64,000 nucleotides of DNA from assembly GCF_002093745.1 (NCBI RefSeq), contig NZ_MTSB01000022.1:5851-69850 (forward strand), in the 5' to 3' direction. The notes beneath the pieces were generated by a model, which ran no database searches, was not told where the DNA came from, and saw nothing but the letters and a program-made list of their open reading frames with translations. How positions within the stretch are numbered: position 1 is the first letter of the stretch; every line of letters starts with the position of its first letter. Source of the stretch: Pseudomonas graminis (lineage in GTDB: Bacteria > Pseudomonadota > Gammaproteobacteria > Pseudomonadales > Pseudomonadaceae). This document shows positions 38,454 to 55,267 of this stretch, piece by piece. A program made the position numbers and the translations under genes.

Positions 38454-39548
38454 TTGGAACACTGGTTTGTGATGAATGGGGGCAAGCAACTGGGGCCGAT
38501 GGACGCTGACGCTGCGCGCCTGATTGCACGTGAATCGCCCGGTGCCTGGTGCTGGCAACAAGGGATGCCGGACTGGCAGCCGATCTATCAGGTCCCGCAA
38601 GTGCGGGCCATGAAAAAGGACGGCGTGACGCCCTTTCCGGCGCCGACACCGGAGATGATCCAGCCGAAGCCCTACGGGCTGCCCGCACATGCCGCCCCGG
38701 CCGCCAGCGCCAACCCGGCCCCGGCTCCCGCGCCGGCCCCGAACAAACGCCCTTCTTTCACGCCGGACGCGAACGCTTCGGGTGGCTTTGGCCTGGCGCA
38801 GGCCACTGACGGCGTTGATTTCAAGCTGTACGGCTCGGAAACCCAGTTTGTCGAGCTGGAGCTGGACCCCGGTGAAAGTGCCGTCGCCGAAGCAGGCGCG
38901 ATGATGTACAAGACCTGCGACGTGCAGATGGAGACCATCTTCGGCGACGGCAGCAATCAGTCGTCCGGGTTGCTGGGTTCTCTGTTCGGTGCCGGTAAAC
39001 GCATGTTGACCGGCGAAAGCCTGTTCACCACGGTGTTTTCCCAGCAAGGCGCCGGCAAGGGCCGCGTCGCTTTCGCTGCGCCCTACCCCGGCACCATTCT
39101 GCCTCTGAACCTGCGCGACTTCGGCGGTAAGCTGATCTGTCAGAAAGACAGCTTTCTGGCCGGCGCCAAGGGCGTGTCCATCGGCATCCAGTTTCAGAAG
39201 AAGATTCTTACCGGGCTGTTTGGCGGTGAAGGTTTCATCCTCCAGAAACTGGAAGGCGACGGCTGGGTGTTCGTCCACATGGGCGGCACAGTGCGCAAGA
39301 TCGAGTTGGCGGCCGGCGAAGCGCTGGATGTCGACACGGGCTGCCTGGCGGCCATGACCCAGACGGTCGACTACGATATCCGCATGGTCGGCGGCGGCAT
39401 CAAGTCAATGCTGTTTGGTGGCGAGGGCGTGTTCTTTGCCAGACTGACCGGCCCCGGCACCGTCTGGCTGCAGAGCCTGCCCTTCTCGCGTCTGGCCGGG
39501 CGCATGCTAGCGGCCGGGCCTGCCGGTGTGGGCCGAAGCGAACGTTAA
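38454..39548 (+). CDS. GYF_2 domain / AIM24 (TIGR00266) family protein
   Basis: A 364-residue protein. Residues 1-50 form a GYF_2-type domain (WFVMNGGKQLGPMDADAARL...PDWQPIYQVPQ), followed by a Pro/Ala linker (about 60-105), then an AIM24/TIGR00266 beta-helical domain (VDFKLYGSETQFVELELDPGESAVAEAGAMMYK, GGEGFILQKLEGDGWVFVHMGG). AIM24-type proteins often accompany ter genes. The start is a TTG at 38454, 8-9 nt after GAGGG; a TTG at 38439 is the alternative. It lies 48 bp after nadC and 71 bp before terF on the same strand. Confidence 0.8.
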   Translation: MEHWFVMNGGKQLGPMDADAARLIARESPGAWCWQQGMPDWQPIYQVPQVRAMKKDGVTPFPAPTPEMIQPKPYGLPAHAAPAASANPAPAPAPAPNKRPSFTPDANASGGFGLAQATDGVDFKLYGSETQFVELELDPGESAVAEAGAMMYKTCDVQMETIFGDGSNQSSGLLGSLFGAGKRMLTGESLFTTVFSQQGAGKGRVAFAAPYPGTILPLNLRDFGGKLICQKDSFLAGAKGVSIGIQFQKKILTGLFGGEGFILQKLEGDGWVFVHMGGTVRKIELAAGEALDVDTGCLAAMTQTVDYDIRMVGGGIKSMLFGGEGVFFARLTGPGTVWLQSLPFSRLAGRMLAAGPAGVGRSER

Positions 39549-39619
39549 CGTGACGACTTCGTCATTCGACCGAGGGCTATTTGACGCCCTCTTTGCCCCC
39601 TCTTTGCCAAGGAAGCGAC

Positions 39620-40861
39620 ATGCAGATTACTCAAGGCCAACGCATCCCTCTTTCCACGCTGATTCAGGGCAACGATCTCACGCTGTCGCTCGTGATCAAA
39701 TCCGCGCATGTGATTGATTACGTCTGCTTTGGCGTCGATGCCAACGGCAAGCTGTCGGACGACCGCTACATGATCTTCTTCAATCAACCGACCAGCCCAT
39801 GCGGCAGCGTAAAACAGGCCAACGGCGGGGATTTCCAGCTGGCACTGGGCAGCTTGCCAGCGTCTATCGACAGGCTGGTGTTCACCGCGTCCATCGATGG
39901 TGCGGGCGTCATGAGCGATATCCAGGCGAGTCATTTCAGCATTCGGCATCAGGGCAGCGAAGTGGCTCGTGGCGAATTCTCCGGCGCAACCTTCGCCGCC
40001 GAGAAAGCCATCATGGTTGCTGACATTTACCGCAAGAACGGTGAATGGCGCATCGCATCCAACCTGCAGGGCTACAACGCCGGGCTGGACGCGCTGGTGG
40101 TGCATTTTGGTGGCGAAGTCGCTGACGCGCCGCCGGCCGCACCTGCCGCCCCCGCGCGCATTTCACTGGAAAAGAAAATTGCCGACGCGGCACCGCAGTT
40201 GATCAGCCTGGCGAAGAAAGCTCAGGTCAGCCTGGAGAAAGCCAGGCTGACTGACACCAAGGCACGGGTCGGTCTGGTGCTGGATGCGTCTGGCTCGATG
40301 AACCCGCAATACACCCGTGGCCACGTTCAGGAAGTGATTGATCGCCTGATCCCCCTCGCGGTGCATTTCGATGACGACGGCGCGCTGGATTGCTGGGCGT
40401 TCGGGGCAAAACCGCAGCAGTTGAACGCGGTCACGCTGGCCAACTTCCAGAACTTCATCAAGACCGACCACGGTGGCTGGAAAGACTGGGAGCTGGGCGC
40501 ACGCATCAACGATGAGCCGAAGGCGATGCGCATGGTCATCGACTATTATAAGAAGTCGGGTGACAAGACGCCGGTCTACATCCTGTTCATCAGCGACGGC
40601 GGCGTGCATCAAGACCGCGAAATTACCAAACTGATGATTGAGGCCGCCAGGCTGCCGATCTTCTGGCAGTTCGTGGGCCTGGGCGGTCGCGGCTACGGCA
40701 TTCTGGAAAAGCTCGATGACATGGGCGGCAGGGTTGTCGACAACTGCAATTTCTTCGCCCTGGACCGCCTGGACGAAGTGCCGGAAGAGAAACTCTATGA
40801 CCTGCTGATGGAAGAGTTTCCGGACTGGCTGAAAGCGGCCAAGGGTGCGGGGATTTTGTAG
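39620..40861 (+). CDS. terF: TerF: TerD domain fused to VWA domain
   Basis: A 413-residue protein, the length of classical TerF. Residues 1-175 are a TerD-like domain (SHVIDYVCFGVDANGKL, AAEKAIMVADIYRKNGEWRIASNLQGYNAGLDALV). After an Ala/Pro linker, a VWA domain starts near 220 with the MIDAS motif LVLDASGSMN and later FISDGGVHQDRE. Ter VWA proteins are thought to scaffold metal-dependent complexes. ATG 39620 has AAGGAAG upstream. It is transcribed toward, and shares a terminator with, the terZABCDE operon, unlike classical operons where terF follows terE on the same strand. Confidence 0.92.
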   Translation: MQITQGQRIPLSTLIQGNDLTLSLVIKSAHVIDYVCFGVDANGKLSDDRYMIFFNQPTSPCGSVKQANGGDFQLALGSLPASIDRLVFTASIDGAGVMSDIQASHFSIRHQGSEVARGEFSGATFAAEKAIMVADIYRKNGEWRIASNLQGYNAGLDALVVHFGGEVADAPPAAPAAPARISLEKKIADAAPQLISLAKKAQVSLEKARLTDTKARVGLVLDASGSMNPQYTRGHVQEVIDRLIPLAVHFDDDGALDCWAFGAKPQQLNAVTLANFQNFIKTDHGGWKDWELGARINDEPKAMRMVIDYYKKSGDKTPVYILFISDGGVHQDREITKLMIEAARLPIFWQFVGLGGRGYGILEKLDDMGGRVVDNCNFFALDRLDEVPEEKLYDLLMEEFPDWLKAAKGAGIL

Positions 40862-40937
40862 AACGTCGAGCGTGCGGAACGATAACCCCAACCAGGGCCG
40901 GCATGATCGCCGAGAAACCCATCGTCTGATACACCGT

Positions 40938-40961
40938 CTTCGCGGACAAGCCCGCTCCCAC
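40938..40961. repeat. REP-type element fragment
   Basis: CTTCGCGGACAAGCCCGCTC followed by CCAC resembles the standard Pseudomonas REP core (CTTCGCGGGCAAGCCCGCTCC-like), located in the tail-to-tail space after terF. Confidence 0.6.
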
Positions 40962-40994
40962 GCCCTTTGGGCAGAAGCCTGAAAAGCTCCAATA

Positions 40995-41026
40995 AAAAAC
41001 CCCCGCCGTTGCTGGCGGGGGTTTTT
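40995..41026. terminator. Bidirectional terminator, terF / terE
   Basis: AAAAAACCCCCGCC, GTTGC loop region, GGCGGGGGTTTTT. Perfect GC stem with A and T runs on both sides, so it can stop both the plus-strand terF transcript and the minus-strand ter operon. Confidence 0.95.
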
Positions 41027-41044
41027 ATCGGACGCTGATCGGGT

Positions 41045-41623
41045 TTAGCCGATTGCAACGCCGTGAGCTTCTGCCAACGGCTTCAAACCGCCCGCAAAGC
41101 CCTGGCCGATGGCCTTGAACTTGAACTCGTCGCCGTTGCGATACAGCTCGCCGAAGATCATCGCGGTTTCAGTCGATGCATCTTCCGACAAGTCGTAACG
41201 AGCGATTTCCTTGCCATCTGCCTTGTTCACAACGCGGATGTAAGCGTTTCCGACCTGGCCAAAGCTCTGCTTGCGCTCTTCAGCCGAGTGGATGGTGACC
41301 GCGAAAACCAGCTTCTTGACCGCAGCAGCCAAGCCGGTGAGCTTGACGTTAACCTGCTCGTCGTCGCCGTCACCTGCGCCTGAGCGGTTGTCGCCCAAGT
41401 GCTCGACCGAACCGTCAGCCGACTTTTTGTTGTTGTAGAAAATGAAGCTGTTGTCGTCCAGCACTTTGCCATTTTCGCCAACGATGAAGATCGACGCATC
41501 CAGGTCGAATTCGGTGCCATCGGTAACACGAGGATCCCAACCCAGGCCCACGGTGATTTCTGTCAGACCAGGCGCTTCCTTGGAGAGGGAAACGTTGCCG
41601 CCTTTACTCAGACTTACAGCCAT
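41045..41623 (-). CDS. terE: TerE, TerD-family calcium-binding stress protein
   Basis: A 192-residue single TerD domain. The N-terminus [19 protein letters not shown] and [23 protein letters not shown], plus the acidic metal-binding loops [19 protein letters not shown] and [19 protein letters not shown], match TerE of terZABCDEF operons. TerD-family domains bind two Ca2+ ions. It is the last gene of the operon, 37 bp after terD, and ends at the shared terminator. terD and terE are close paralogues; the assignment rests on order and on the VHxGVAIG C-terminus. Confidence 0.93.
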
Positions 41624-41660
41624 GTTCGTAATCCTTTCTGGAAAATTGATAGGGCGCGAA

Positions 41661-42236
41661 TCAGAAATTCATGCCGAAGGAATTGGCCACAGCTTTCAAG
41701 CCACCGGCATAACCCTGGCCTACTGCACGAAACTTCCACTCGCCAGCGTTGCGGTACAGCTCGGCAAACACCATTGCAGTTTCGGTCGAAGCATCTTCTG
41801 CCAGGTCGTAGCGAACAACTTCAGAGCCTGACTTTTCGTTCAGGACGCGAATGAACGAGCCGCCCACCTGCCCGAAGTTCTGCTTGCGGCTGTCGGCATC
41901 GTGAATGGTCACGACGAAAACAACCTTATCGACATCGGCTGGCACGCGGGTCAGATCAACCTTGAGCACTTCATCATCGCCGTCGCCAGCACCCGTGCGG
42001 TTGTCGCCGGTGTGCTCGACAGAACCGTCGGCGCTCTTGAGCTGGTTGTAGAAAATGAAGTCAGCTTCACTGCGGACTTTGCCATTGGCACCCAACAGGA
42101 ATGCGCTGGCGTCCAGGTCGAACTCCTGGCCGTCAGTGGCACGCGGATCCCAGCCCAGACCGATCAGTACATTGGTCAGGGTCGGGTCGGTTTTCGACAG
42201 CGAAAGGTTGCCACCTTTTTGCAGAGTCAAAGCCAT
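41661..42236 (-). CDS. terD: TerD, tellurium resistance / Ca-binding protein
   Basis: A 191-residue TerD domain closest to TerD itself: [76 protein letters not shown]. The acidic residues for both calcium sites are conserved. It sits between terC and terE in the canonical order. TerD and TerC are considered the core of Ter-mediated tellurite, colicin and phage resistance in enterobacteria; the native signal is unknown. Confidence 0.94.
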
Positions 42237-42263
42237 GATTCGTTTATCTCCTTTATCCAGTGT

Positions 42264-43298
42264 TTACGCTTTTTCTTCGGCGGGTTCTTCTTTACCCGGG
42301 AAGAGCAGGCTGGCGACGATACCGATGATCAACACGACAACTACAACCAGCAGGCTGGCGTTGGCGCTGATCTCGTAACCGTGATGGAACAAGTGGTTGG
42401 TCGCGTTCAGGCCCAGCTTGATGGCGATGAAGAACAGCAAGGCAATAACCGCTTTCTCCAGATGCACCAGGTAACGCTTGAGGGCTTCAAGTACGAAGTA
42501 GAGCGTACGCAGACCGAGAATCGCGAACAGCATGGCCGAGAACACGATCAGTGGCTCGCGGCTCACGGCGATGATTGCAGGCACGGAATCGAACGCGAAC
42601 AGCACGTCGGAGATTTCAGCCACAACCAGACACAGGAACAGCGGGGTCGCAAACAGAGCGCCCTTGGCGGCCAGAGTGATGCCGGCGTTTTCAGGCTTTT
42701 TGACTTCTTCTTCCAGCACCGAGCGACGCACGAAGAAGTTGCTGCCGTGCAGTTTTGGCCACACCGGGAACAGTTTCTTGGCGAAGCGGTACGCCATGTG
42801 TTGCGAGTAATCGACTTCTTCGTCGTCGTCATCGCCCGCTCTGAGCATCATGATGGCTGTCCAGGCAACGATGACCGCGAACACCACCTCGACCCACGGA
42901 CCCAGCGCCAGCAGGCCTGTACCGATGGCGACGAAGATGCCGCGGAAAACGATGGCACCGATGATGCCCCAGTACAGGACACGGTGGCGCAAGCCATCCG
43001 GAATCTTGAACCAGGAGAACAACGCCATGAACACGAACAGGTTGTCGACGCTCAGCACTTTTTCCAGCGCATAACCGGTCACGAACAGGGTGGCAACTTC
43101 AGAGCCGTGCTGCACGTACAGGAAACCGGCGAAAGCCAGCGAAATGGCGACCCAGAAAATCGACCATGCCGAGGCTTGCGCGAGGGTGATCGGCTTGTTT
43201 CCGCGGTGGGAAAACATGTCGATGGCCATGGCCGTGATGGCCAGACCGACGAAAACCGCCATCGTGAGTGGAGGGAAGCCTAGAGAGGTGCTTTCCAT
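42264..43298 (-). CDS. terC: TerC family integral membrane protein
   Basis: A 344-residue polytopic protein with about nine membrane helices. Family motifs: EKVLSVDNLFVFMALFSWF and EISDVLFAFDSVPAIIAVSREPLIVF, each with conserved Asp/Asn in the membrane thought to handle divalent metal ions. A cytoplasmic acidic loop (AGDDDDEEVDYSQHM) adds to the metal-binding character. In ter systems TerC is the membrane anchor for TerD/TerB proteins. It follows terB by 26 bp. Confidence 0.95.
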   Translation of the reverse strand: MESTSLGFPPLTMAVFVGLAITAMAIDMFSHRGNKPITLAQASAWSIFWVAISLAFAGFLYVQHGSEVATLFVTGYALEKVLSVDNLFVFMALFSWFKIPDGLRHRVLYWGIIGAIVFRGIFVAIGTGLLALGPWVEVVFAVIVAWTAIMMLRAGDDDDEEVDYSQHMAYRFAKKLFPVWPKLHGSNFFVRRSVLEEEVKKPENAGITLAAKGALFATPLFLCLVVAEISDVLFAFDSVPAIIAVSREPLIVFSAMLFAILGLRTLYFVLEALKRYLVHLEKAVIALLFFIAIKLGLNATNHLFHHGYEISANASLLVVVVVLIIGIVASLLFPGKEEPAEEKA

Positions 43299-43324
43299 TT
43301 AACTGCGTTCCTTAGGGTAAAAAA

Positions 43325-43774
43325 TTACAGGTCGAAATCAGACGGGTTCAGGCCAAGCTCTCGGCAGATCGTGCGGCAGACTTCCCGCTCTTTCTCATCG
43401 AAGCTGCCATCTGCACCACCGATAGCACAGCAGACGCGCACCAACAGGCGGGAGGCATCTTCTTTCTTCTTGATCTTGCCGATGGTTTTCAACGCTTCGG
43501 CACGGCCAATTTCATAATCGAATTCAAACTTGGAGCAGGCTTCCTGGAAGCCTTGGATGACCTCCTTCATGTCAAAGACCTTCAGTTCCTGAGAGTTCTG
43601 AATGAAGCCGGCCATTTTCTGCTTTTCACTGGAGCTGATGTCGCCGTCAGCGGCAGACACCAAAGCACAACCGGACACCACAGCGTCCATGAATTCACGA
43701 TTCTTGAACTTCGAAACTTCAGTTGCCAGCTTGTCGCGGGCCGCTGTCGCGTTTGTTTTCAACCAGTCCAGCAT
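43325..43774 (-). CDS. terB: TerB, acidic metal-binding helical protein
   Basis: A 149-residue TerB-domain protein. The two pseudo-repeated acidic motifs CALVSAADGDISSSEKQKM and CAIGGADGSFDEKEREVC are where the fold binds metal. Helical, soluble, no signal peptide. TerB is reported to join TerC at the membrane in enterobacterial systems. It lies between terA and terC with spacers of 51 and 26 bp. Confidence 0.94.
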   Translation of the reverse strand: MLDWLKTNATAARDKLATEVSKFKNREFMDAVVSGCALVSAADGDISSSEKQKMAGFIQNSQELKVFDMKEVIQGFQEACSKFEFDYEIGRAEALKTIGKIKKKEDASRLLVRVCCAIGGADGSFDEKEREVCRTICRELGLNPSDFDL

Positions 43775-43825
43775 GTCTATCTCCCATGAGGCGGCACAGC
43801 CAGCCCAGAAATTCCACGGTGTTGT

Positions 43826-45079
43826 TTACTTGGAGCCAGCGGCCCAGCGCATGCCCCAGCCATAGGCCTTGTCCATATTGCTGTGGCCGTTGTGGAAATC
43901 AACCCGGCGCGTCACTTTGACCGCACCGTTGTCATTCTCCAGCAAGGCGATTGCGCACATGCCCTGACGCCCGCCCTCTTCGTTGAGGCGGACCTCGATC
44001 GGGGGCTGGCCCGGCGCATGAATGGTGACAACTCCGTCTGTCTCTTTCCAGTTTGGCGCGCCTTCGTAAATGAAGGCATAGACCAGAATTCGACGAATCT
44101 TGTTCCAGTGAGCGCCATTGATGTGCAACCACTCACCGTCGCTGATAGAGCCGGTGCGGTCGTCACCCATCAATTTGATGAAAGGCTCGGTATTGAGTGA
44201 ACCGAACGAGTTGCCCAGCGCCTGAACAGCGCCTTTGGCGCCGTCCTGCAATTCGAAGAGGCAGCCTACATCAAGGTCGATGGCATTGCTCTTTTTCATC
44301 GAGAAGAAGCCGCCGCCTTTGCTGTCGTTACGGCGGTTCCAGTTCAGGTTGACGCGAATCTCGCCGAAACCGGCGCTGGATTTTTCCAGGCTGATCGACG
44401 CCCGGGTCTTGTCCAGTGTGATCTTGCTCAGGTTGACGGTCGACCTGGCTGCAGGAGCGGGCGCAGGCGCAGGTGCAGGTGCAGGTGCAGGTGCAGGTGC
44501 AGGTGCAGGTGCAGGTGCAGGTGCAGGTGCAGGTGCAGGTGCAGGTGCAGGTGCAGGTGCAGGTTGATCCTGGGGCGCGGCGACTTCAACGCCAAAGTTT
44601 TTCGCCAGAGGCTCAAGCCCGCCTGCAAACCCCTGCGCCACACAGCGGAATTTCCAGGCGCCCTGACGCAGGTAGAACTCGCCCAGAATCAGCGCGGTTT
44701 CTTTCATGCCGTTCGTAGGGATATCGGCTTCGATACCCCCGGTAATGTTCAGGGCCAGACGCGACACACTGCCAAAGCTGGCTTTGTTTTCGTAGATGGT
44801 CGCCGTCAGGGCAACCTTCTCGATGACGGCATCCAGACGGCTCGGGTCAAGACTGAACACCGCACGACCCGCCGACGCTTCCGTCTGCTGGACCGCGCCG
44901 CCGTTAACGCTTTTCTGGCCGTAGAAACACATGTCCTGATCGCCGCGCACCTTGCCGGAGCTGGTGAGCAGAAATGCAGACACATCGATGTCTGCGTCCG
45001 CCAGCGGTGAGTAAATGATCTCTACCGTCAAAGGACCGGTAGCGACTGGCGCGTTGGCGCCCGGGACAAGTTGGGTCAT
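43826..45079 (-). CDS. terA: TerA, two TerD-like domains joined by a Pro-Ala linker
   Basis: A 417-residue protein, longer than the ~385 of classical TerA because of its linker. Residues 1-165 form a TerD-like domain (GVEVAA at its end), then about 19 Pro-Ala dipeptides encoded by a hexanucleotide repeat, then a C-terminal TerA-type domain (VNLSKITLDKTRASISLEKS...AIDLDVGCLFELQDG, GDDRTGSISDGEWLHING). The stiff PA linker should hold the domains apart. Its ATG overlaps the terZ stop by 4 bp. Confidence 0.93.
   Translation of the reverse strand: MTQLVPGANAPVATGPLTVEIIYSPLADADIDVSAFLLTSSGKVRGDQDMCFYGQKSVNGGAVQQTEASAGRAVFSLDPSRLDAVIEKVALTATIYENKASFGSVSRLALNITGGIEADIPTNGMKETALILGEFYLRQGAWKFRCVAQGFAGGLEPLAKNFGVEVAAPQDQPAPAPAPAPAPAPAPAPAPAPAPAPAPAPAPAPAPAPAARSTVNLSKITLDKTRASISLEKSSAGFGEIRVNLNWNRRNDSKGGGFFSMKKSNAIDLDVGCLFELQDGAKGAVQALGNSFGSLNTEPFIKLMGDDRTGSISDGEWLHINGAHWNKIRRILVYAFIYEGAPNWKETDGVVTIHAPGQPPIEVRLNEEGGRQGMCAIALLENDNGAVKVTRRVDFHNGHSNMDKAYGWGMRWAAGSK
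44461..44562. repeat. Hexanucleotide microsatellite inside terA
   Basis: Fifteen perfect tandem copies of GTGCAG (44473-44562) preceded by two GCGCAG units. On the coding strand it reads CCT GCA, Pro-Ala. Unit length is a multiple of three, so slippage would alter linker length without breaking the frame. Confidence 0.97.
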
Positions 45080-45669
45080 CCGCGTATGGCTCCGATGGCC
45101 AGGTCAACCAGGTCCTCGGCAGTGCGGCCATTGGTGACCTTGCCCACTGCGGTGAAATCCCAGCCCGCAGGCGTGCGCGACAAGTAGGACATCACCACGC
45201 CGGTGTGCTGGCCTTTTTCAGGCAGATCGAAGCGGCCCAGCTCGTTACGGCTGCCCATGTCCACGATGCGGCAATAGGCATTGGCGACTTTTTCGAAGTT
45301 CTGACCGGTGAACGAGTTCACGGTAAACACCAGGTAGCTGACGGTAGCAGGCAGCTTTTCCAGGTCGATGTTGATGGTCTCGTCATCGCCAGCACCTTCG
45401 CCGGTGCGGTTGTCGCCGGAGTGAACAATGGCACCATCACGCGACTGCAGTTGGCGGAACCAGACCAGATCGACGCGATTTTTGTCAGCGTCGAGCATGA
45501 TGCAGGATGCGTCCAGATCGATATCACCGCCGCCATCGCCGAGCAATTTACCGAAAAAGCCACTGGCTTTTTCAGGGTCCCATCCCAGGCCCATACTGAC
45601 TTTCTTGAGGCCGGTGCCAGCAGTTTTCTCGAGTGAGATCGTCTGGTTCTTTGCCAAAGTGAGTGCCAT
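45076..45669 (-). CDS. terZ: TerZ, TerD-family protein
   Basis: A 197-residue TerD-domain protein of the TerZ branch: LEKTAGTGLKKVSMGLGWDPEKASGFF, an insertion LLGDGGGDIDLDASCIML, then HSGDNRTGEGAGDDETINIDL and VFTVNSFTGQNFEKVANAYCRIVD. First of the core terZABCDE block. ATG 45669 (MALTLAKNQ) is preceded by GGAGCG at good spacing; an ATG four codons earlier (45681) is the alternative. The 47-bp gap from the upstream HAD gene suggests readthrough, possibly with an internal promoter. Confidence 0.93.
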   Translation of the reverse strand: MALTLAKNQTISLEKTAGTGLKKVSMGLGWDPEKASGFFGKLLGDGGGDIDLDASCIMLDADKNRVDLVWFRQLQSRDGAIVHSGDNRTGEGAGDDETINIDLEKLPATVSYLVFTVNSFTGQNFEKVANAYCRIVDMGSRNELGRFDLPEKGQHTGVVMSYLSRTPAGWDFTAVGKVTNGRTAEDLVDLAIGAIRG

Positions 45670-45716
45670 TTTTCGCTCCATGTGGACGTCGGGATACAGA
45701 TAAAAGTGTTACAGCC

Positions 45717-46463
45717 TCACCGGGTTGGCCCGTCTTTGCCATCAGGATTGTGTAACTTGGCGTTAACGGGGCCTTTATAACGGCCTCGACGCCACGTCGG
45801 GTGGAACAATCGCCAGTGCGCATCCTGAGCAGCGGCGAGCAGTTCGTGGTCACCCCGCGTGTCGCCCCAGGCACGAACCCGGAACTGCGTGAGCGGGCCG
45901 TAAACGCTTTCCAGGCGCGCCACTTTCGAGTCGCAACGGCAATTGCTGCCCTCGATCAACCCGGTCAGTTTGCCGTCGATGACTTCCAGGTTGGTGCCGA
46001 TCAGCTCTACTTTCAAGCGATCAGCGAAGGGTTGCAGGACCATAGCAGGCGATGCTGAACATAGCGTGACAATGGCGCCCTTCTCGATTTCAGCCGCAAT
46101 GGACTCCAATGCAGCCGGACGCATCAGGCGTTTCCAGTGAGACTGGCAGAAGGCTTCGGCCTTTTGCTGCAGCCACTGCACTTCAACGCCGCTCAAGAAT
46201 GCCTTGATCAGACGGCCTTTGAGTTCATCGCGGGTCAGGCGTTTGGCCAGGTAGCCAATGCTCGGCAAGACCAGTCGGGCCATGCGCATGGAAAAAGCAC
46301 GCTGCCCGAAAGCGAATTTGAGAAAAGGGACAAAGCTGTCATGCCGGGTGATGGTCCCGTCGAAATCGAACACCGCCAGCAAGCGTTGTTCCACTTCGAT
46401 TTCAAGATCAGGTCCTACAGGTTCGATATCCGGTTCTACAGTTTCAAGGTCAGGTTCTATCAT
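45717..46463 (-). CDS. HAD-IB family hydrolase of the Ter island
   Basis: A 248-residue haloacid dehalogenase-type phosphatase. Motif I is VFDFDGTITRHDSF (nucleophile Asp33, acid Asp35), motif II TLCSASPAMV, motif III Lys in CRCDSKVARL, and motif IV WGDTRGDHELL: the full SerB-like HAD-IB set. The first 25 residues (IEPDLETVEPDIEPVGPDLE) are an acidic, internally repeated extension absent from typical family members. It begins immediately after the aldolase stop. A role as phosphatase in the Ter metabolite pathway is inferred from context. Confidence 0.88.
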   Translation of the reverse strand: MIEPDLETVEPDIEPVGPDLEIEVEQRLLAVFDFDGTITRHDSFVPFLKFAFGQRAFSMRMARLVLPSIGYLAKRLTRDELKGRLIKAFLSGVEVQWLQQKAEAFCQSHWKRLMRPAALESIAAEIEKGAIVTLCSASPAMVLQPFADRLKVELIGTNLEVIDGKLTGLIEGSNCRCDSKVARLESVYGPLTQFRVRAWGDTRGDHELLAAAQDAHWRLFHPTWRRGRYKGPVNAKLHNPDGKDGPTR

Positions 46464-47414
46464 CTAGCTAACTGCCTCAGCGAGTCGAATGCTGGCATCC
46501 ATGATCGAAGCGGGTGTGGGTAACACTCCGTGCCATTTGGCGCGCTCCATGATGTGGGTTGCCCATTTGTAATGGGTCGCCGGTTCACACATAGCATCGT
46601 TGTACTTGAACACGGCGGGGGCCACAGAGTTCAAAATCATCCGGGCGGAGTTCATGTCCTCCAGACTGACGCGTAGTGCATTCTGAATGATATTGACCTG
46701 CGAGGGGTGAATTGCCGTCTTTCCGACCAATCCATTGGTGATATCAAGCGCCAGTTCCTGCTCCAGAATGTCCGGTGTGGCCAGTTGCTCGAATACCGGC
46801 GCCGTCAGCGCAAACCCTTGAGCACCCATAACGCCGGCCAGCATGGGAATGACATAACCCATTGGCGTCGAATACAGCGTCATGGCCGGGTTGCGGCGCA
46901 AACCCAGGCAACCCATCAGGTCATTGCCGCCAATGCGCAACGCAATGATCCGCTCGTGCAGGCTGGCTTTCAACGCCTGCCCCAGTTCGACCATAGCGGT
47001 CGGGTTGAATACTTCCGGCGTTTCCAGTGTCGGCATCAAGGCCAGTGCCGGATTGGTCACCGCCTGCTCCCAGCGGGTCAGGGTGCTCAGCGACAACTTG
47101 GGGACGACAAAGCCGTCAACGTGCGACATCAGCGGCCAGTCGTTGAGAATGCGCGCCATTTCAGCGTCTCGAGGGCGCACGAACAACAGCGGACCATTGG
47201 CCGGACGCCCCCCGCGATCCTGAATGCGGGTCAGCACCTGGCGAAGGTTGAGCAGCGCAGTTTCGACATCAATCAGGGCGACCGCGTCTTCAAGACAGAC
47301 CACCAGCGAACGCAGCTCGGGAATCTTCTCGCCGAATACCACATCGATAATGTCGTCACGGGTGGCGGGCATGTACAGCGTTGCCCCCAGCGCGTAAGGC
47401 GAAAACAAGGCCAT
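46464..47414 (-). CDS. HpcH/HpaI aldolase / CitE-like protein of the Ter island
   Basis: A 316-residue TIM-barrel C-C lyase. Visible: ALGATLYMPATRDDI at the start, LVVCLEDAVALIDVETAL (metal-binding Glu/Asp), FVRPRDAEM, FVVPKLS, MPTLETPEVFNP and GNDLMGCLG. Like CitE and malyl-CoA lyases it should cleave or form a C-C bond next to a carboxylate; the substrate is unknown. CitE-like genes recur in Ter biosynthetic modules. It overlaps the StiP-type gene by one base and abuts the HAD gene. Confidence 0.88.
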   Translation of the reverse strand: MALFSPYALGATLYMPATRDDIIDVVFGEKIPELRSLVVCLEDAVALIDVETALLNLRQVLTRIQDRGGRPANGPLLFVRPRDAEMARILNDWPLMSHVDGFVVPKLSLSTLTRWEQAVTNPALALMPTLETPEVFNPTAMVELGQALKASLHERIIALRIGGNDLMGCLGLRRNPAMTLYSTPMGYVIPMLAGVMGAQGFALTAPVFEQLATPDILEQELALDITNGLVGKTAIHPSQVNIIQNALRVSLEDMNSARMILNSVAPAVFKYNDAMCEPATHYKWATHIMERAKWHGVLPTPASIMDASIRLAEAVS

Positions 47415-48508
47415 TAGCTGAGACTCCGAATGATGGTCACTGCCCGATAAGGCCCCAGAACATCGCCGACTTCTTCGACGGGAATTCCCGCCTTCTCGGT
47501 CAGGTGCAGCAGCAATTGCACGTCGCTGTCGGCCAGGTTGCGGACCAGCACGTGATCCGGCACACGGCGCATCACCGCCCGGGTCGCCTCGGCGATGCCC
47601 GGTTTGACGCGATTGAGATTATTGATGCCGAAGCGTTCGGCCAGACGGTCGATCACCTGTGACGCGGCAGCGTTAAGCCCGCTGCGTTGCGACGGCGTCC
47701 AGGGGGACAGCGTCAGCGTTGAACGCTTTTGACGGCGCAGGCGCTCGATCTGTTCAATAAAAGAACGGGTGACGTCGTGGCCCTGCAACTGCCCGTACAC
47801 CACACAGCCATGCAACCCGCCGTCCGCCGGCCAGATGGAACGCGACACCAGCCCGGAGACCGTTGCGCCGAGGATGCCTGAAGGAATCACCCAATCCTCT
47901 GCGGAAGCCGCCAGCCAGGCACAGCCACAGGGATCAGCCAGCACCACCAGCCGCGGGTCTGCGGGGAAACGCGCATCCCCTGCCAGACTGCGCCGGATCT
48001 CCCCGGAGATAGCGCCTTTCCCGGTCCAGCCATCGACAAACACGATGTTCTGCGCGCCGTGAGCCTGAACGATGGCTTCCAGCGCCACGTTGTCGATGCC
48101 GCGGTCACGCACGATGCTGATGCCGTAATGATGCGCTTCACGGCCCAGTTCGATCAGCGCCCGACGCAGCAGCACGCCCAGCGGCAGGCCGGCACGCACG
48201 AACGACACCAGAATGATTTCAGGCCCGGTACATTGCCGGTCAAGTGCCTGCGCCAAGGCCTGGACATCATAGGCCATGCGCTCGCCGTTCTGACTGAGCG
48301 CCCGCTCATACAACGCTTGATGAGCAGCGCTTGGGGCGGACTCCTCGCTGATCATTTCCGAATAATGTTTTTGCCGTGTCTGGATCAGGCGTTCCTTATC
48401 CTCGACACGAGTGGTCTGTATCTGGACGCTGCGCAACAGAAAATGCACGTCATCGGCCAGATAACTGCCACTGCCGACGGTATCGAGCCCGTGAACGGGA
48501 TCACTCAT
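47414..48508 (-). CDS. StiP-type phosphoribosyltransferase-fold protein of the Ter island
   Basis: A 364-residue protein of the family named cysteine protease StiP in databases, whose core is a type I phosphoribosyltransferase fold. LVSFVRAGLPLGVLLRRAL (about 100-118) and a PRPP-loop equivalent IVFVDGWTGKGAI (155-167) are seen; C-terminal helices include RLAERFGINNLNRVKPGIAEATRA. The ATG at 48508 (MSDPVHGLDTV) lies inside the end of the upstream HAD gene (8-bp overlap); the 80 residues before it in the same frame are antisense-like and not real. Transferase function is more plausible than protease from the motif. Confidence 0.85.
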   Translation of the reverse strand: MSDPVHGLDTVGSGSYLADDVHFLLRSVQIQTTRVEDKERLIQTRQKHYSEMISEESAPSAAHQALYERALSQNGERMAYDVQALAQALDRQCTGPEIILVSFVRAGLPLGVLLRRALIELGREAHHYGISIVRDRGIDNVALEAIVQAHGAQNIVFVDGWTGKGAISGEIRRSLAGDARFPADPRLVVLADPCGCAWLAASAEDWVIPSGILGATVSGLVSRSIWPADGGLHGCVVYGQLQGHDVTRSFIEQIERLRRQKRSTLTLSPWTPSQRSGLNAAASQVIDRLAERFGINNLNRVKPGIAEATRAVMRRVPDHVLVRNLADSDVQLLLHLTEKAGIPVEEVGDVLGPYRAVTIIRSLS

Positions 48509-49259
48509 GTGCGGCTCCGACAAACATTTTCGCCAACTGGCTGCGGGCAGGCGTCGCCCACCAGTGGCACTCGTCCATGAAGCCCAGGTCGGTGATGCTG
48601 TCGCCAAAACCCAGTACCGGACGCTCGCCGTTGATCGCCCTGTCGCGGCGCAGCCATTCCTGCACGGCGTAACGCTTGGCCAGACCGTCAGGCAGAAATG
48701 CCAGGTTGTTGCCATTACCGTGAATGTGCATGCCTTCGAGCAGGCCACGGGCCTGAACTTCGGCCAGCACCTGCGTCAGGATGCCGTCATCGCTTTCGTT
48801 GTGCTTGGTCACGACGTAATGGAACAGTTGCGCCTCTTCGACCACCCAGCCGCGTAACGAAAAGCCCAGTTCCTGACCGATGGCCAGCGTGGTGGCAGAC
48901 AACTCATGCAGGCGCGACTGATAGCCGGCCAGGGTCTGCTTCATCTGCTCGTTCCAGTCATGATCCAGTCGCCCCATGACGTCGAGCATCACGCCACCGT
49001 GCGAACAGATCGCGCCGGCAGTGAACGGCAACCTGACCCGGCTGTAGGCCTCGACACTGCGTGCGGTCACCGGCACCACATCGGAGTGGGCCAGCAACCA
49101 ATGGGCGAACGACTTCTGCACGTTGGTCATGTAACCGTTGGCGTTACCGCTGATATCCAGCGTTGCGACGTGCTTTTCAATGTCGGCCGGTGTTTTGCGC
49201 GCGGTCTGGAACAGCGTGTCGTCCAGGTCGACGAAGATCAGCGGGCGGTCATTACTCAT
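48501..49259 (-). CDS. HAD superfamily hydrolase (Cof-like) of the Ter island
   Basis: A 252-residue phosphatase with motif I FVDLDDTLFQ (Asp10, Asp12), motif II PVTARSVEAY, a C2-type cap (VMGRLDHDWNEQM...LRGWVVEEAQLFHYVV) and motif IV GFGDSITDLGF. It differs from the HAD-IB enzyme three genes downstream, so the module has two distinct phosphatases. It overlaps its neighbours on both sides by 8 bp, showing tight coupling with the two PRTase-type genes. Confidence 0.88.
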   Translation of the reverse strand: MSNDRPLIFVDLDDTLFQTARKTPADIEKHVATLDISGNANGYMTNVQKSFAHWLLAHSDVVPVTARSVEAYSRVRLPFTAGAICSHGGVMLDVMGRLDHDWNEQMKQTLAGYQSRLHELSATTLAIGQELGFSLRGWVVEEAQLFHYVVTKHNESDDGILTQVLAEVQARGLLEGMHIHGNGNNLAFLPDGLAKRYAVQEWLRRDRAINGERPVLGFGDSITDLGFMDECHWWATPARSQLAKMFVGAAHE

Positions 49260-50385
49260 CGCAGATCACCTCGGCGTTCAGCGCCTCGATCAGCTCGGCC
49301 GGCACGGCCTGCCTCGGGGTTTCGGTGCAGATCAGCACCCGGTCAAACTGACCCGGTCGCACGTTGTAAAGGAAGTTGGGGATGCCCAGGCCGTAGTTGT
49401 CGGAGAACGACAGCGCGTGATCAATGGCGTGACCCAGCGCGATCGGTGAACGGCTGGTGGAGCTGAAATGCACATCCGCGCCGGCTTTTTCCAGACGCTC
49501 GGCGAGCAGAAACGGACGCCAGACGAACTCGCTGGTGCCGACCACCAGCACACGCTCGCCCTTACTGACCGCAAGGCCCGGTGCCAGGGTGTCGGCCACC
49601 GACAGCACGCCCATTCGGCCCCAGTCATTGGCGGTCACCAGAGGCCAGTCCCCCATCGCGACGGTGCCGACTTCCGGCATGTCCGGCAATGGCGCGCTGA
49701 TGTCTTCGTAGAAGGAATACGAACCCTGCAACAGCGATACCTGCTCGGCCGACGCGCCCATTGACGTGCTGACCGCGCCCGCCGACCAGTCGGTGAGCAC
49801 GCAGGTGACCACGCGCTCGACCTTGCTCAATCCTGCCTCGACCAGCGCTTGATGAAGATTGATGAAGGTCTTGCCAGTAGACGCCTCGTCATCGACCAGC
49901 ACCAGCGAGCGCGCATTGAGCATCATCTCGCGCATCGCCGGGTCGGCAGGCAGATGAATCAGGTGGGCGCTGGCGTGACTGTGTTCTTCTTCAAAGCGGG
50001 CAAACAACTCGGTGCCGGTCGGATGGCGAGTGCTGACCAGGTACAACGCATCGGGCCGCGTTGCGCTATAGGCACGATGCACGCCAGCGCCGAGTCCGAC
50101 GGCGGTTTCGGCCATGCCGATGACCAGTACCGGGCCGGGCAGGTCGGCCGGGATCTTGCCGGCCAGGTCCTGAAAGCTTTTGAGCATCACACTCGGGCGC
50201 GCTGGAATATGACGACCCAGAACGCGTGACACGAACAGGAACGCGCGTTTGGGGTTACGCCGTTCAGCGAATCCAAATAGAGAGTCCGGGGCAATGGTGG
50301 ACGAGTCGACGCTTACATCGAGGCGACCACGGAGCAGATCAGCACGAAGCCTTGTAGGGGTGGAAATAGCTGCGCTGCTGTCCAT
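49252..50385 (-). CDS. Phosphoribosyltransferase-TRSP domain protein of the Ter island
   Basis: A 377-residue protein: N-terminal PRTase domain with PRPP loop LVLVDDEASTGKTF (161-174) preceded by GPVLVIGMAETAVGLGAGVH, and a C-terminal TRSP domain with GERVLVVGTSEFVWRPFLLAERLE and the naming motif variant STSRSPI. Orotate-type PRTases fused to TRSP are a hallmark of Ter biosynthetic modules. It overlaps the following HAD gene by 8 bp and lies 66 bp downstream of the TerD-protease gene. Confidence 0.88.
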   Translation of the reverse strand: MDSSAAISTPTRLRADLLRGRLDVSVDSSTIAPDSLFGFAERRNPKRAFLFVSRVLGRHIPARPSVMLKSFQDLAGKIPADLPGPVLVIGMAETAVGLGAGVHRAYSATRPDALYLVSTRHPTGTELFARFEEEHSHASAHLIHLPADPAMREMMLNARSLVLVDDEASTGKTFINLHQALVEAGLSKVERVVTCVLTDWSAGAVSTSMGASAEQVSLLQGSYSFYEDISAPLPDMPEVGTVAMGDWPLVTANDWGRMGVLSVADTLAPGLAVSKGERVLVVGTSEFVWRPFLLAERLEKAGADVHFSSTSRSPIALGHAIDHALSFSDNYGLGIPNFLYNVRPGQFDRVLICTETPRQAVPAELIEALNAEVICDE

Positions 50386-50451
50386 CGATAAATTCCTGAG
50401 TAACGGGGCCGCAGCCCCAGACGCCAGCCACCTGGGCTGGCAACACCGACG

Positions 50452-51600
50452 TCATTGGCGAGAGGCTTCAAGGAGCCATAACGATGACTGGGCGGTGCGT
50501 GAGATTTCTGTCGTGGTGTAAGACCTTTCCGGACGGGCATGCGGCGCATCGATACGGCAAGCCTGCAGAAAGGACAGAAGCAGTGCGGATTTCACTGCGA
50601 AATTCATGTTTTGCCCGTCAGGGACGGTGGACGTCACCATCCCGATGACCGCACCGCCGTTGTCGAATAACGGGCTCCCGCTGGAACCCGGCTGAATGGG
50701 CGCCGTGAACTGGAACAGGCTGGCGTCGTTATGCAGCCCGAACAGTCCGGAGATCCCGCCCTGAGTCACCTGCAACCCGCCACCGGAAATCGACGCGAGC
50801 GGATAGCCCAGCACCGCCACCGTATCACCCGGCTCACAGCCCTGCCCGTCCCGGAATGTAACCGGAGACAACAGCGGCGCGCCCTGCACCCGCAGCAGCG
50901 CAATGTCATTGCGGCGATCAATCACCACGGGCTCAGCCTTGTAACGGCCTTGCAGGGAAGAGATGTAAAACACGCCCATGTCTTCAATGACATGCGCACA
51001 GGTCATGACGTGTGCCGGGCCTACCACAAACGCGGTGCCGGTCGCCGACTCGTGTCGAGGACCGCCTGCCGAGCCGCCCGACCCACCGGACGGGCGGCGC
51101 GGGTGACGGTCATCCACTTCGAGGCCGATCTTGCGCCCGAACGCCGACAACCCGTACGCCGAGCCTTCGCTCAGCGCCCGGAATTTCCATTGATCATGAC
51201 GCTTGTAGAACTCGCCGATGATGATCGCCGCTTCGCCGTTGTCACGCAGGTCCAGGCGATGCTCGATGTCGGCGTCCACCTTCAGGTGCAGGCTGGCGAA
51301 GTCGCGAACCGGCCCCATCGCGGCGTACACATAAACCATCAACAGCACCCGGTCACTGCCCGCCGGGAGCCGGTCCAGCTTCAGCGTACAGCCGACGTCC
51401 TGAGGGCCGCCGCTCCACTCCATCCAGCTCTGCTCCTGATGCAGCAGCGCCGGATCGCCCATCGGCTGACGTTTCTCGTTGACCGCCAGCAAAGCGACTG
51501 CTGCGTATTCACCAAAAACCGAAGAGGTACCGCTCTGCAGGTTCCAGGTGCAGTGAGCGTTTGCTAAAGCAGTGTTTGCACCTGGCGCCAGAAGCTTCAT
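50452..51600 (-). CDS. TerD-like domain fused to a trypsin-like serine protease
   Basis: A 382-residue cytosolic protein with no signal peptide. Residues 1-162 form a TerD-like domain (GEYAAVALLAVNEKRQPMGDP, NGEAAIIIGEFYKRHDQWKFRALSEG). A Gly/Ser linker (165-185) leads to a chymotrypsin-fold protease with an intact triad: His203 (MTCAHVIEDM), Asp232 (RRNDIALLRVQG) and Ser307 (QPGSSGSPLFD). A ~35-residue tail (ARPERSYTTTEISRT) follows. The acidic TerD loops are weaker than in TerD/TerE, so calcium binding is uncertain. It is the second gene of the operon. Confidence 0.9.
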   Translation of the reverse strand: MKLLAPGANTALANAHCTWNLQSGTSSVFGEYAAVALLAVNEKRQPMGDPALLHQEQSWMEWSGGPQDVGCTLKLDRLPAGSDRVLLMVYVYAAMGPVRDFASLHLKVDADIEHRLDLRDNGEAAIIIGEFYKRHDQWKFRALSEGSAYGLSAFGRKIGLEVDDRHPRRPSGGSGGSAGGPRHESATGTAFVVGPAHVMTCAHVIEDMGVFYISSLQGRYKAEPVVIDRRNDIALLRVQGAPLLSPVTFRDGQGCEPGDTVAVLGYPLASISGGGLQVTQGGISGLFGLHNDASLFQFTAPIQPGSSGSPLFDNGGAVIGMVTSTVPDGQNMNFAVKSALLLSFLQACRIDAPHARPERSYTTTEISRTAQSSLWLLEASRQ

Positions 51601-51654
51601 GCCCGATCCTCCTTGATAAGAGCGATTATTGATAGCAAAAATCTATTATCCTGA

Positions 51655-52653
51655 TCAAACCAGAGCCCGTACAGCGACGGTGATGGGCTTGACCCGAATA
51701 TCCTCAAGCCAATGTGTTTCCGGTTCTTTCAGCCCGAGACGCCGAGTTGCAAAAATACCCGGCAGGTTGATGCCAGTTTGACGCGTATAACCGATGCCGC
51801 CCGAGTAGCGCGGGTTGATCTCCAGCAGGCGCGGCTTGCCGTCTGCGTCGTCGCGGGTCTGCACATTGATCAGCCCGTCGCAGGCAAAATGCTCGGCGGC
51901 CCGCACGGCCAGTTGCACGGCCTCGCTGTCTCGCTCGAACGTCTGGTTCAAGCCCACCTTGCGTCGCCCGACGAAGGCAATCGCTTTGCCGCCCTCGCAC
52001 ACCATGTCCACCGAGACCTCACTGCCCGGCATGTACGGCATCAGCAGCATGGCCGGAAGGTCTTCAGACTGACGATAGGCATCAAGGTACGCCTTGAAGG
52101 TTGTCTCGCGCGCATCGGGGTTGGCGAAACAGCGAAACGCATCGACATCAGCCCTGAAACGCCAGAAACCCTGGCCATAAATGCCGACCACCGGCTTGAT
52201 GCAGACCTCGCCGGAAATCGACAACCTGTCGTAGGCCGCCTGAAGCTCATCGGCGTTGTGAGCCGTGATCGCCGGAATGCAGGCCAGCCCCGCCGCCTCG
52301 GCCGCTGCGGTGAACCGGCTTTTGTCATCGACATTCATGAAGGTCTGCCGGGACGTTCCGCCCGTGACAAGGTCCAACCCCTCAGCGACAAACCGCGGGC
52401 GATGCGCTTCATACACACCGCCCACCCGACCGGCAATAATAACGGTGACACCCAGGGAGCGAGCCTTATCCAGCACCCAGTCGATGCGTTCTTCGTTGTC
52501 GAGCGGCTCTTGCAATGCCACATCGGCCTGGCCGGTAATTTCGGAGCGCTGCTGGCGATGAGAAGCGATAATGCGTACCGACGCCGGCAAGGCATCACGC
52601 GCACCGATGATCACATCGCGCTGGCTGGCCTGCCCTTCAAGGAACCAAATCAT
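51655..52653 (-). CDS. ATP-grasp domain protein of the Ter island
   Basis: A 332-residue carboxylate-amine ligase-type enzyme (ATPgrasp_Ter-like), first gene of the operon. N-terminal Rossmann-like part MIWFLEGQASQRDVIIGARDAL, ATP-binding KPVVGIYGQGFWRF, and metal-binding LLEINPRYSGGIGYTRQTG with the conserved Glu and Asn. It should join a carboxylate to an amine via acyl-phosphate; substrates unknown. ATG 52653 has CCGGAGATTGAC directly upstream; a frame start at 52683 lacks this. The operon promoter must lie in the 119 bp between it and the divergent DUF1523 gene. Confidence 0.88.
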   Translation of the reverse strand: MIWFLEGQASQRDVIIGARDALPASVRIIASHRQQRSEITGQADVALQEPLDNEERIDWVLDKARSLGVTVIIAGRVGGVYEAHRPRFVAEGLDLVTGGTSRQTFMNVDDKSRFTAAAEAAGLACIPAITAHNADELQAAYDRLSISGEVCIKPVVGIYGQGFWRFRADVDAFRCFANPDARETTFKAYLDAYRQSEDLPAMLLMPYMPGSEVSVDMVCEGGKAIAFVGRRKVGLNQTFERDSEAVQLAVRAAEHFACDGLINVQTRDDADGKPRLLEINPRYSGGIGYTRQTGINLPGIFATRRLGLKEPETHWLEDIRVKPITVAVRALV

Positions 52654-52772
52654 GTCAATCTCCGGAAGACTGCGCCGCCTCAAACGGCCTTGTCGAATTT
52701 TGTAATAACTGTTTTGCTTCGAAATGTTCGGTTTAGGGCAAAGTCACGCAATTTTAAACAGAGGACGCTGGT

Positions 52773-53318
52773 ATGAAGTGGCTTAAAAGGTCGATTTGGC
52801 TTGTGGTATTCGTTGCACTCGGGATCGGCGCATTGAGCCTCTACTACGTCCTGCCGCGCCATGATGTCGTGATGATCACCGGCGTGGAAGTCAAAAGAAT
52901 GGACGCCGACGGCGTGGTCAACGCCGAAAACCCGGCAGACGGCCCGACCCGCGACGTGTACTTCATCAACACCGAAGATCCGGACACCAAGAAAGTCGTG
53001 GTCTACCGCAACGAAGACACCGCGTGGAGCTTCCCGTGGTACTTCAAATTCGACTCCGCCGACATCCAGGCCAAAGCCCAAGGCTATTCCCGCGACGCCC
53101 AACAGCTGGCGTTGATCCGCTATTACGGCTGGCGGATAACCATCCTCTCGATGTTCCCCAACGTGACGGAGATTGAAGCCGTGACGAGTCGTGATCAGCC
53201 GTTCCCGGTGTTCAACACGATCTTTTTTGTGGTCGTGGGCGTTTTGGTGTTGATGGTGGTGGTCGGGGTAAGGAAAAGGGTTCGCAGGCAGCCGCGGGTT
53301 GATGGGATGCCTCGGTAA
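52773..53318 (+). CDS. DUF1523 family membrane protein
   Basis: A 181-residue protein with an N-terminal membrane helix (SIWLVVFVALGIGALSLYYVL) and a C-terminal one (FNTIFFVVVGVLVLMVVVGV) flanking a periplasmic domain (HDVVMITGVEVKRMD...YFKFDSADIQAKAQGY...IRYYGWRITILSMFPNV) typical of DUF1523. Function unknown. The Shine-Dalgarno is CAGAGGA. It is divergent from the ter operon across 119 bp and convergent with the GST gene. Confidence 0.87.
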   Translation: MKWLKRSIWLVVFVALGIGALSLYYVLPRHDVVMITGVEVKRMDADGVVNAENPADGPTRDVYFINTEDPDTKKVVVYRNEDTAWSFPWYFKFDSADIQAKAQGYSRDAQQLALIRYYGWRITILSMFPNVTEIEAVTSRDQPFPVFNTIFFVVVGVLVLMVVVGVRKRVRRQPRVDGMPR

Positions 53319-53340
53319 CAAGCAGTAGCATCAAACAACA

Positions 53341-53371
53341 ATGCCCCAGCGAAGCACATCCGCTGGGGCAT
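53341..53371. terminator. Hairpin between DUF1523 gene and gst
   Basis: ATGCCCCAGCG / CGCTGGGGCAT, 11 perfect pairs with a 9-nt loop, in the tail-to-tail space. The T-run is weak (TCTCATTT), but position and symmetry fit a bidirectional terminator. Confidence 0.75.
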
Positions 53372-53413
53372 TCTCATTTCAACGGTCGGATCTGTTCTGG
53401 TCTTGTAGCGGAC

Positions 53414-54853: not shown

Positions 54854-55267
54854 TTATGGAGTTGTCGTAGCGGCTGCAGCAGGTCCAGCACAGGTACTGG
54901 ATGCGGACTTAGCATTACTCACTGCGCAGGTCCAGGTGATAGCGCCGACAGCAGCCAATGAAGGGGTCAGAGTAGCAGTAGTTGCAGAAGTACCATTCCC
55001 TACTGAAGGACTAACCAATACACCGGTTGTAGCATTGCAGGTACCATTTGCGGGCATGGTAACGTTAGTGCATAGTGCAGTTGAAAGCCCCTCTTGTGCA
55101 TTTATACCCACTTGAGTTTTTGCCGCGTCAAGCGTGGCGACAGCACTGGCGCCATTCGCGCGCGCAACATAGTTTTGGTACTGCGGGATAGCTACGGCAG
55201 CCAAGATACCAACGATCGCTACGACGATCATCAATTCGATTAGCGTGAAACCTTTTTGTACGTTCAT
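54854..55267 (-). CDS. pilA: Type IV pilin major subunit
   Basis: Prepilin of 137 residues. A short leader MNVQKG precedes the cleavage/methylation site and [24 protein letters not shown], the class IVa N-terminal helix with Glu5 of the mature form. The globular part is unusually rich in Ala, Thr and Ser ([20 protein letters not shown]), has four Cys and ends AAAATTTP, which may suit O-glycosylation. Transcribed away from pilBCD from its own sigma54 promoter, as in P. aeruginosa where PilSR activates it. Confidence 0.95.

Follow-up and report, generated by a model that had tools for sequence, protein, structure and literature searches.

Ter loci are widespread in bacteria, and both their natural signal and their product are unsettled; a study from 2012 reportedly proposed a nucleoside-like metabolite as the product of the system. 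The present analysis concerns the Ter gene cluster that lies directly downstream of nadC in a 64,000-nucleotide stretch of Pseudomonas graminis DNA (genome G000, contig C14:5851-69850), the whole of which is called the window here. The cluster is probably a chromosomal Ter stress island that entered once, was then inherited by vertical descent, and combines a sensing core and a biosynthetic module with a protease and a DUF1523 protein. The system as such is known, and the candidate novelties are its product, its protease arm and its link with DUF1523. A chromosomal, vertically inherited Ter island in a much-studied group should be easier to dissect by gene removal than the plasmid copies are, with testable parts in the TerD-HtrA protease, in DUF1523 with the shared control block, and in StiP as a possible second phosphoribosyltransferase.

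The Klebsiella ter locus is made up of two operons on opposite strands, with terXYW in the biosynthetic one (PMC8115787), and the ter operon of this genus has been tied to envelope stress tolerance (PMC9933665). In the cluster on plasmid pTTS12 of P. putida S12, the genes follow the same order as in the window (ATP-grasp, TerD-protease, phosphoribosyltransferase, HAD-IIB, StiP, C-C lyase, HAD-IB and terZABCDE) and terF is likewise oppositely oriented; however, the pTTS12 cluster is plasmid-borne, with an IS21-type element about 4 kb off, neither AIM24 nor DUF1523 was matched within the surrounding 33 kb at E <=1e-8, and the conserved 28-nt block described below was not found. The same gene order recurs in five other Pseudomonas loci (L028, L029, L032, L033 and L034), and nadC was not seen in the fetched island stretch of any of them. 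An Enterobacter plasmid locus (L071) shares terZABCDE and the ATP-grasp, phosphoribosyltransferase, HAD, StiP and C-C lyase genes with the window, but there the module and terZABCDEF are divergent, and DUF4236 and TerW are also present. Taken together with the Burkholderia loci considered below, these comparisons make the island in the window a Pseudomonas variant of a known and already widespread system.

Within the island, terC, terB and several TerD-family proteins are clustered together, the biosynthetic module is present and linked (ATPgrasp_Ter, PRTase_2/TRSP, StiP/PELOTA, C-C lyase and HAD), and all six TerD-domain matches of the whole genome fall inside it. A first-pass annotation of this DNA had credited the cluster with all known Ter parts, which is true of the expected families but not of the complete set: in a tblastn search confined to the window, the TerW and DUF4236 proteins of the Enterobacter ter plasmid had no significant match (best E 0.30 and 0.24, respectively).

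Origin of the island and the tRNA-Thr(CGU) site

The distribution of the system was followed in a sample of 159 Pseudomonas genomes. A strong ATPgrasp_Ter match (at least 130 bits, the weaker rows from 71 bits down, including many frames of ~1,080 residues as expected of carB, having been dropped) was found in 21 of them, and the Ter module lies beside nadC in six; a nadC-linked island was also present in five further genomes that were reached via named loci (L021, L022, L025, L026 and L027). Among the other 15 carriers, the module shares a contig with nadC in six but is far from it, and in nine the two are on separate contigs, which leaves adjacency undecided. An rpoB tree was built from 30 chosen genomes, namely the nadC-linked set, close nadC relatives and other Ter carriers, and in it all 11 nadC-linked genomes fall into a single clade (100/99), the sister of which, with midpoint rooting, consists of six island-less genomes. 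Comparison of the nadC loci showed that the island is absent from the orthologous site of relatives, and in P. aeruginosa nadC and pilA presumably adjoin. The earlier view of an old, lineage-specific insertion is thus upheld by the 6 of 159 genomes and by the single rpoB clade; the opposite outcome that it had named, the same genes at this place in all Pseudomonas, was not what the genus sample gave.

A tree of the island itself was computed from nine concatenated proteins in 41 rows (the window and 40 loci, with L038 and L053 excluded and six rows holding 7-8 genes). It places 27 rows in one clade (SH-aLRT 99), and the main split of this clade, between a P. ovata/G149 set and a P. syringae-group set, mirrors the host tree; its sister clade, obtained with a quick method and with long outgroup branches, mixes other Pseudomonas, Burkholderia and pTTS12. 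P. tremae is the nearest neighbour in this tree and also has the closest TerD-protease among the named loci (98%), which places the window in the P. syringae group. The match between island and host trees, combined with the single rpoB clade, fits one entry followed by vertical descent. The island most likely arrived in the interval running from nadC via tRNA-Thr(CGU) to pilA, in an ancestor shared by the P. syringae group and its sister clade with P. ovata. Direct evidence of nadC linkage is limited to the 11 genomes in the rpoB tree. As an aside, genome G020 is labelled as the same species as G000, yet identity between the nadC genes is 89% and the rpoB of G020 falls in a distant clade, and one of the labels is probably wrong.

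No tRNA was called in the window by ARAGORN, and no match to tRNA-Thr(CGU) was found in the whole genome to which it belongs. The first-pass annotation had remarked that no tRNA stood at either edge and had taken this as a pointer to homologous exchange. The remark holds for the window but not for its relatives nor, by inference, for the ancestral site: in 12 Ter-less comparison loci (L058-L069, chosen mostly as close nadC relatives) tRNA-Thr(CGU) was called near nadC in 10 (none in L066 and L067), in each of the 10 with its 3′ end towards nadC. The full tRNA is kept in 5 of 22 distinct island-bearing genomes, which were scanned as far as the fetched loci extend (L014, L016, L021, L041 and L055), where it is found beyond DUF1523 and has its 3′ end pointing at the island, and partial copies are present in L015/L054 (23 nt), L018 (24 nt) and L017 (55 nt). 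Across the 11 nadC-linked genomes, two have a full-length match of at least 90%, and two have weaker matches of 82% and 75% elsewhere. The window genome therefore appears to have lost its tRNA-Thr(CGU). The lack of a tRNA beside the island in a single genome can be misleading, since relatives retain the gene at that place, and it loses its value as a sign of homologous exchange, although that route of entry is possible.

In a genome of the sister clade (G022), the interval from nadC to tRNA-Thr(CGU) holds ~13 kb of other cargo (L064:3650-16845), which by eye resembles exopolysaccharide export genes and related ones, and which makes this interval a hotspot. A literature search with one phrasing returned no prior report of a genomic island at pilA/nadC/tRNA-Thr in Pseudomonas.

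The TerD-HtrA fusion, StiP and DUF1523

An unusual protein of the island is a fusion in which a TerD domain comes first and an HtrA-like serine protease follows. Its catalytic triad (H203/D232/S307) is invariant in 46 of 46 aligned sequences, which comprise the window protein and 45 relatives out of the 120 listed, with identities as low as 54%. A homologue search gave 404 proteins at E <=0.001, with both domains in every one of the 120 listed; in 127 plasmid records 80% or more of the query is covered, and relatives were also seen on other Pseudomonas megaplasmids. A terZ or terD gene was present in the fetched stretch of 34 of the 35 loci L007-L041, the exception (L038) having module genes only, about 6 kb away; in loci L042-L051 the match is limited to the protease part. 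The protease half resembles HtrA/Deg structures both in sequence (best E 2e-19) and in fold (best Foldseek E 6e-10), and it has the fold and the triad in common with these proteases, but unlike them the fusion has the TerD domain ahead of the protease. No PDZ domain was matched by Pfam and no signal peptide was apparent by eye, and from this reading of the N-terminus the protease is presumed to be cytosolic. The architecture is not new: a TerD-Tryp protein of P. syringae with the same domain order (YP_273108.1) was listed in 2008 as functionally uncharacterised (PMC2605481), and the available passages of that survey do not give its operon context. The TerD-protease of P. syringae pv. cilantro (L020) is, at 373 residues versus 379-382 in near relatives, shortened around the catalytic His, and may be inactive.

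The calcium ligands of Klebsiella TerD are residues 40-42, 78, 79 and 89 and residues 29, 82, 84 and 88 (PMC8779313). The corresponding positions are retained in TerD, TerE and TerZ of the window and are lacking in the TerD domain of the fusion, where the loop is deleted. This loss suggests that the TerD part docks, which is a guess, or binds something other than calcium; nucleotide derivatives have been put forward as what TerD domains may recognise (PMC7159879).

StiP carries a Pfam name that denotes a cysteine protease, and a fold comparison of its model showed a resemblance to phosphoribosyltransferases, so that StiP may be a second phosphoribosyltransferase of the module, perhaps of type I; a sequence search of its alignment against solved structures gave no match at E <=1. 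An invariant Cys, as a cysteine protease would need for catalysis, was not seen: across 30 aligned sequences, the three most conserved Cys columns have this residue in 29, 29 and 24, although the single exceptions may be sequence errors.

The DUF1523 gene and the 13-gene operon headed by ATPgrasp_Ter are divergent and 119 bp apart. In the genus sample, DUF1523 was found in 15 of 159 genomes, and these comprise 14 of the 21 Ter carriers versus 1 of 138 non-carriers (p = 4e-14); with the six nadC-locus genomes removed, the counts are 8 of 15 versus 1 of 138 (p = 9e-9), both p values being inexact because the genomes are related. In 11 of the 14 co-occurring genomes DUF1523 and the Ter module are at most 25 kb apart. 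The protein has hydrophobic segments near both ends, as judged by eye, and is probably membrane-bound. DUF1523 is thus likely to be a 16th gene of the island, and the limit of 15 genes set by the first-pass annotation has to be moved outwards, the unit reaching 53318. A search of titles and abstract openings brought up no paper on DUF1523 concerned with Ter. In Pseudomonas sp. ANT_H4 (L029) the gene is placed differently, just beyond terE (at 20629) and not adjoining the ATP-grasp gene.

The divergent region holds a 31-bp block in which 27 of 31 positions are invariant, versus 26 of 88 outside it, in an alignment of 28 rows from 26 genomes (two genomes entered twice). A 28-nt part of the block has a single occurrence in the genome with up to 3 mismatches allowed, and it was not found in 15 other Ter loci (L028-L040, L070 and L071) at up to 7 substitutions. 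We read the block, from its conservation, as a putative dedicated control element; it was matched to no known regulator. A 14-nt core allowed 3 substitutions gave 10 scattered matches in four of those 15 loci, which were taken as chance, and a consensus promoter scan was set aside, with 6 sites against 5.5 in shuffles.

Proposed mechanism and rival explanations

In the mechanism envisaged, the membrane protein TerC, TerB and the calcium-binding TerD, TerE, TerZ and TerA would form a stress-sensing core, whereas two phosphoribosyltransferase-like proteins, the ATP-grasp ligase, the C-C lyase and two HAD phosphatases would make a small ribosyl-type molecule, which would signal to a target or modify it. 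The cytosolic TerD-HtrA protein, docked or switched via its TerD domain without calcium ligands, would cut a target once the system fires, and DUF1523, expressed from the shared control region, would act as a partner in the membrane. That the Pseudomonas version has in this way gained regulated proteolysis, with a calcium-blind TerD domain holding HtrA, DUF1523 as partner, and the small molecule or calcium switching the protease, is put forward tentatively, as a proposal that is rather unlikely to be right in this form.

Several results weigh against the account of a singly acquired, vertically inherited island with a protease and a DUF1523 arm. The Burkholderia version is reduced, with terC, HAD-IB and the ATPgrasp_Ter match missing from five of six loci, and the Enterobacter locus is without the TerD-protease fusion and HAD-IB. 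DUF1523 is missing from 7 of the 21 Ter carriers of the genus, and its overlap with StiP is 0 outside Pseudomonas (368 genomes of the class, 4 with DUF1523 and 8 with StiP over the cut-off), so that the link is without support there, at counts too few to exclude it. The AlphaFold model of the fusion (pLDDT 80.9, pTM 0.52) seems to give the two halves but not to capture their arrangement. As for entry, a search of the nadC flank of the island for a repeat of the tRNA end gave nothing in the loci covered (E <=1).

This last result bears on the idea that an integrase acting at the 3′ end of tRNA-Thr(CGU) brought in the island, and that the integrase and one attachment copy were lost later, for which the chances appear even. 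It would account for the island being found 3′ of the tRNA wherever the full gene persists (five genomes), and for the other cargo in the same interval, e.g., that of L064. Further support comes from genome G066, where a tyrosine integrase gene adjoins tRNA-Thr(CGU), with a TrfA gene nearby (L055:6487-7945), and 23 nt of the tRNA 3′ end are repeated next to DUF1523 (L054:15971-15993). The island DNA of G066 is common with that of P. triticifolii (L015), and about 11 kb of G066 are taken to be an element that integrated more recently at this site; with the integrase beside the tRNA, the tRNA end appears to act as an attachment site in this group. For the Ter island itself, however, a second attachment copy was not found, its GC is host-like and no integrase was found among its genes, and integrase entry is therefore plausible and unproven. 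A different history, in which the cluster at nadC was ancestral to all Pseudomonas and lost in most lineages, would explain why Ter modules occur across the genus, with strong ATPgrasp_Ter matches in 21 of 159 genomes, but it is very improbable: the nadC-linked genomes are six of 159 and the 11 studied fall into one rpoB clade, the other carriers have their modules far from nadC (six) or on other contigs (nine, adjacency not settled), and the other Pseudomonas islands of the tree group with Burkholderia and pTTS12.

A further reading concerns function and makes the fused protease the main effector, in proteolytic defence or cell arrest and not in metal resistance. It could draw on the invariant triad and the lack of an apparent secretion signal, and on PADLOC, where the protease domain hit defence proteases (RT-Protease_XI best, at E 3e-18); Shango, a system with a TerB-like domain, is anti-phage (PMC10250203). 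The PADLOC matches are, however, confined to the trypsin-fold part, and of the ten proteins submitted the remaining nine had none (terZ, terA, terB, terC, terD and terE were not among the ten); the Enterobacter cluster, which lacks the fusion, shows that this protein is no core part of Ter, so that this reading is a doubtful one. The account of a Ter island with a sensing core and a biosynthetic module, to which the protease and DUF1523 would be added parts, is preferred.

Gene layout and neighbouring features

The coordinates of the 15 open reading frames at 38454-52653 were borne out, with Pfam or NCBIfam family matches for them, the one for HAD-IIB being weak (Table 1). They do not form a single operon as had been supposed: the AIM24 gene and terF follow nadC on the plus strand, and the 13 genes from ATPgrasp_Ter to terE run towards them on the minus strand. 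The placement between nadC and pilA likewise needs an amendment, as nadC is indeed directly upstream, but the island does not abut pilA, as a GST gene lies in between. The composition is host-like, as the annotation had it, with a GC of 0.594 in the island versus 0.604 and 0.541 in the left and right flanks, respectively.

Table 1. Features of the Ter island in the window, with the matches on which each assignment is based.
Feature	Coordinates	Strand	Matches and remarks
GYF_2-AIM24 fusion protein	38454..39548	+	Pfam AIM24 E 4e-72, GYF_2 E 1e-9; TTG start
terF (TerD domain + C-terminal vWA)	39581..40861	+	vWA-TerF-like E 3e-84, TerD E 4e-25
terE	41045..41623	-	TerD domain E 7e-83; calcium-ligand positions retained
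terD	41661..42236	-	TerD domain E 2e-86; 72% identity to Enterobacter plasmid TerD
terC, membrane protein	42264..43298	-	TerC E 1e-40
terB	43325..43774	-	TerB E 2e-23
terA	43826..45079	-	TerD E 4e-34 on N half; 45% identity to Enterobacter TerA over 421 columns
terZ	45076..45669	-	TerD domain E 6e-46 (scored on longer frame to 45681)
HAD-IB phosphatase-like	45717..46463	-	PF12710 E 3e-27; TIGR01490 above cut-off
CitE/HpcH-like C-C bond lyase	46464..47414	-	PF15617 E 7e-104
StiP + PELOTA	47414..48508	-	PF11202 E 1e-91, PF15608 E 2e-26
HAD-IIB phosphatase-like	48501..49259	-	TIGR01484 E 2e-6, below cut-off; no Pfam match; DLDDT and FGDSITD motifs
PRTase_2 + TRSP	49252..50385	-	E 5e-60 and 1e-19
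TerD-HtrA protease fusion	50452..51600	-	Trypsin_2 E 2e-25, TerD E 9e-8
ATPgrasp_Ter ligase	51655..52653	-	PF15632 E 8e-42; first gene of the 13-gene operon
Divergent control region	52654..52772	.	holds the near-invariant block 52690-52720
DUF1523 protein	52773..53318	+	PF07509 E 2e-63; co-occurrence with the Ter module

The HAD-IB protein has what we take to be HAD-type motifs, and the PRTase_2 protein has a DDEASTG loop that is presumably of the phosphoribosyl pyrophosphate type. Two of three motif patterns tried on the C-C lyase were unmatched, which leaves its PF15617 match unaffected. TerA consists of two TerD-like halves with a long Ala-Pro repeat linker in between. The gap from the nadC stop to the start of the AIM24 gene is 48 bp, and no terminator-like site was found in it on the plus strand.

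Matches to CrcZ and PrrF place the window in a Pseudomonas genome. The GST gene (about 53414-54031, minus strand) lies between DUF1523 and pilA, is variably present, with matches only in L010, L011 and L020, and may mark a segment that replaced the tRNA; a terminator-like stem of 14 pairs (53340-53372) follows it. The pilA gene (54854-55267) has a GC at third codon positions of 0.43, versus 0.64-0.78 in the other 20 genes computed, and is 40-57% identical to pilA of relatives, its pilin being either fast-changing or exchanged.

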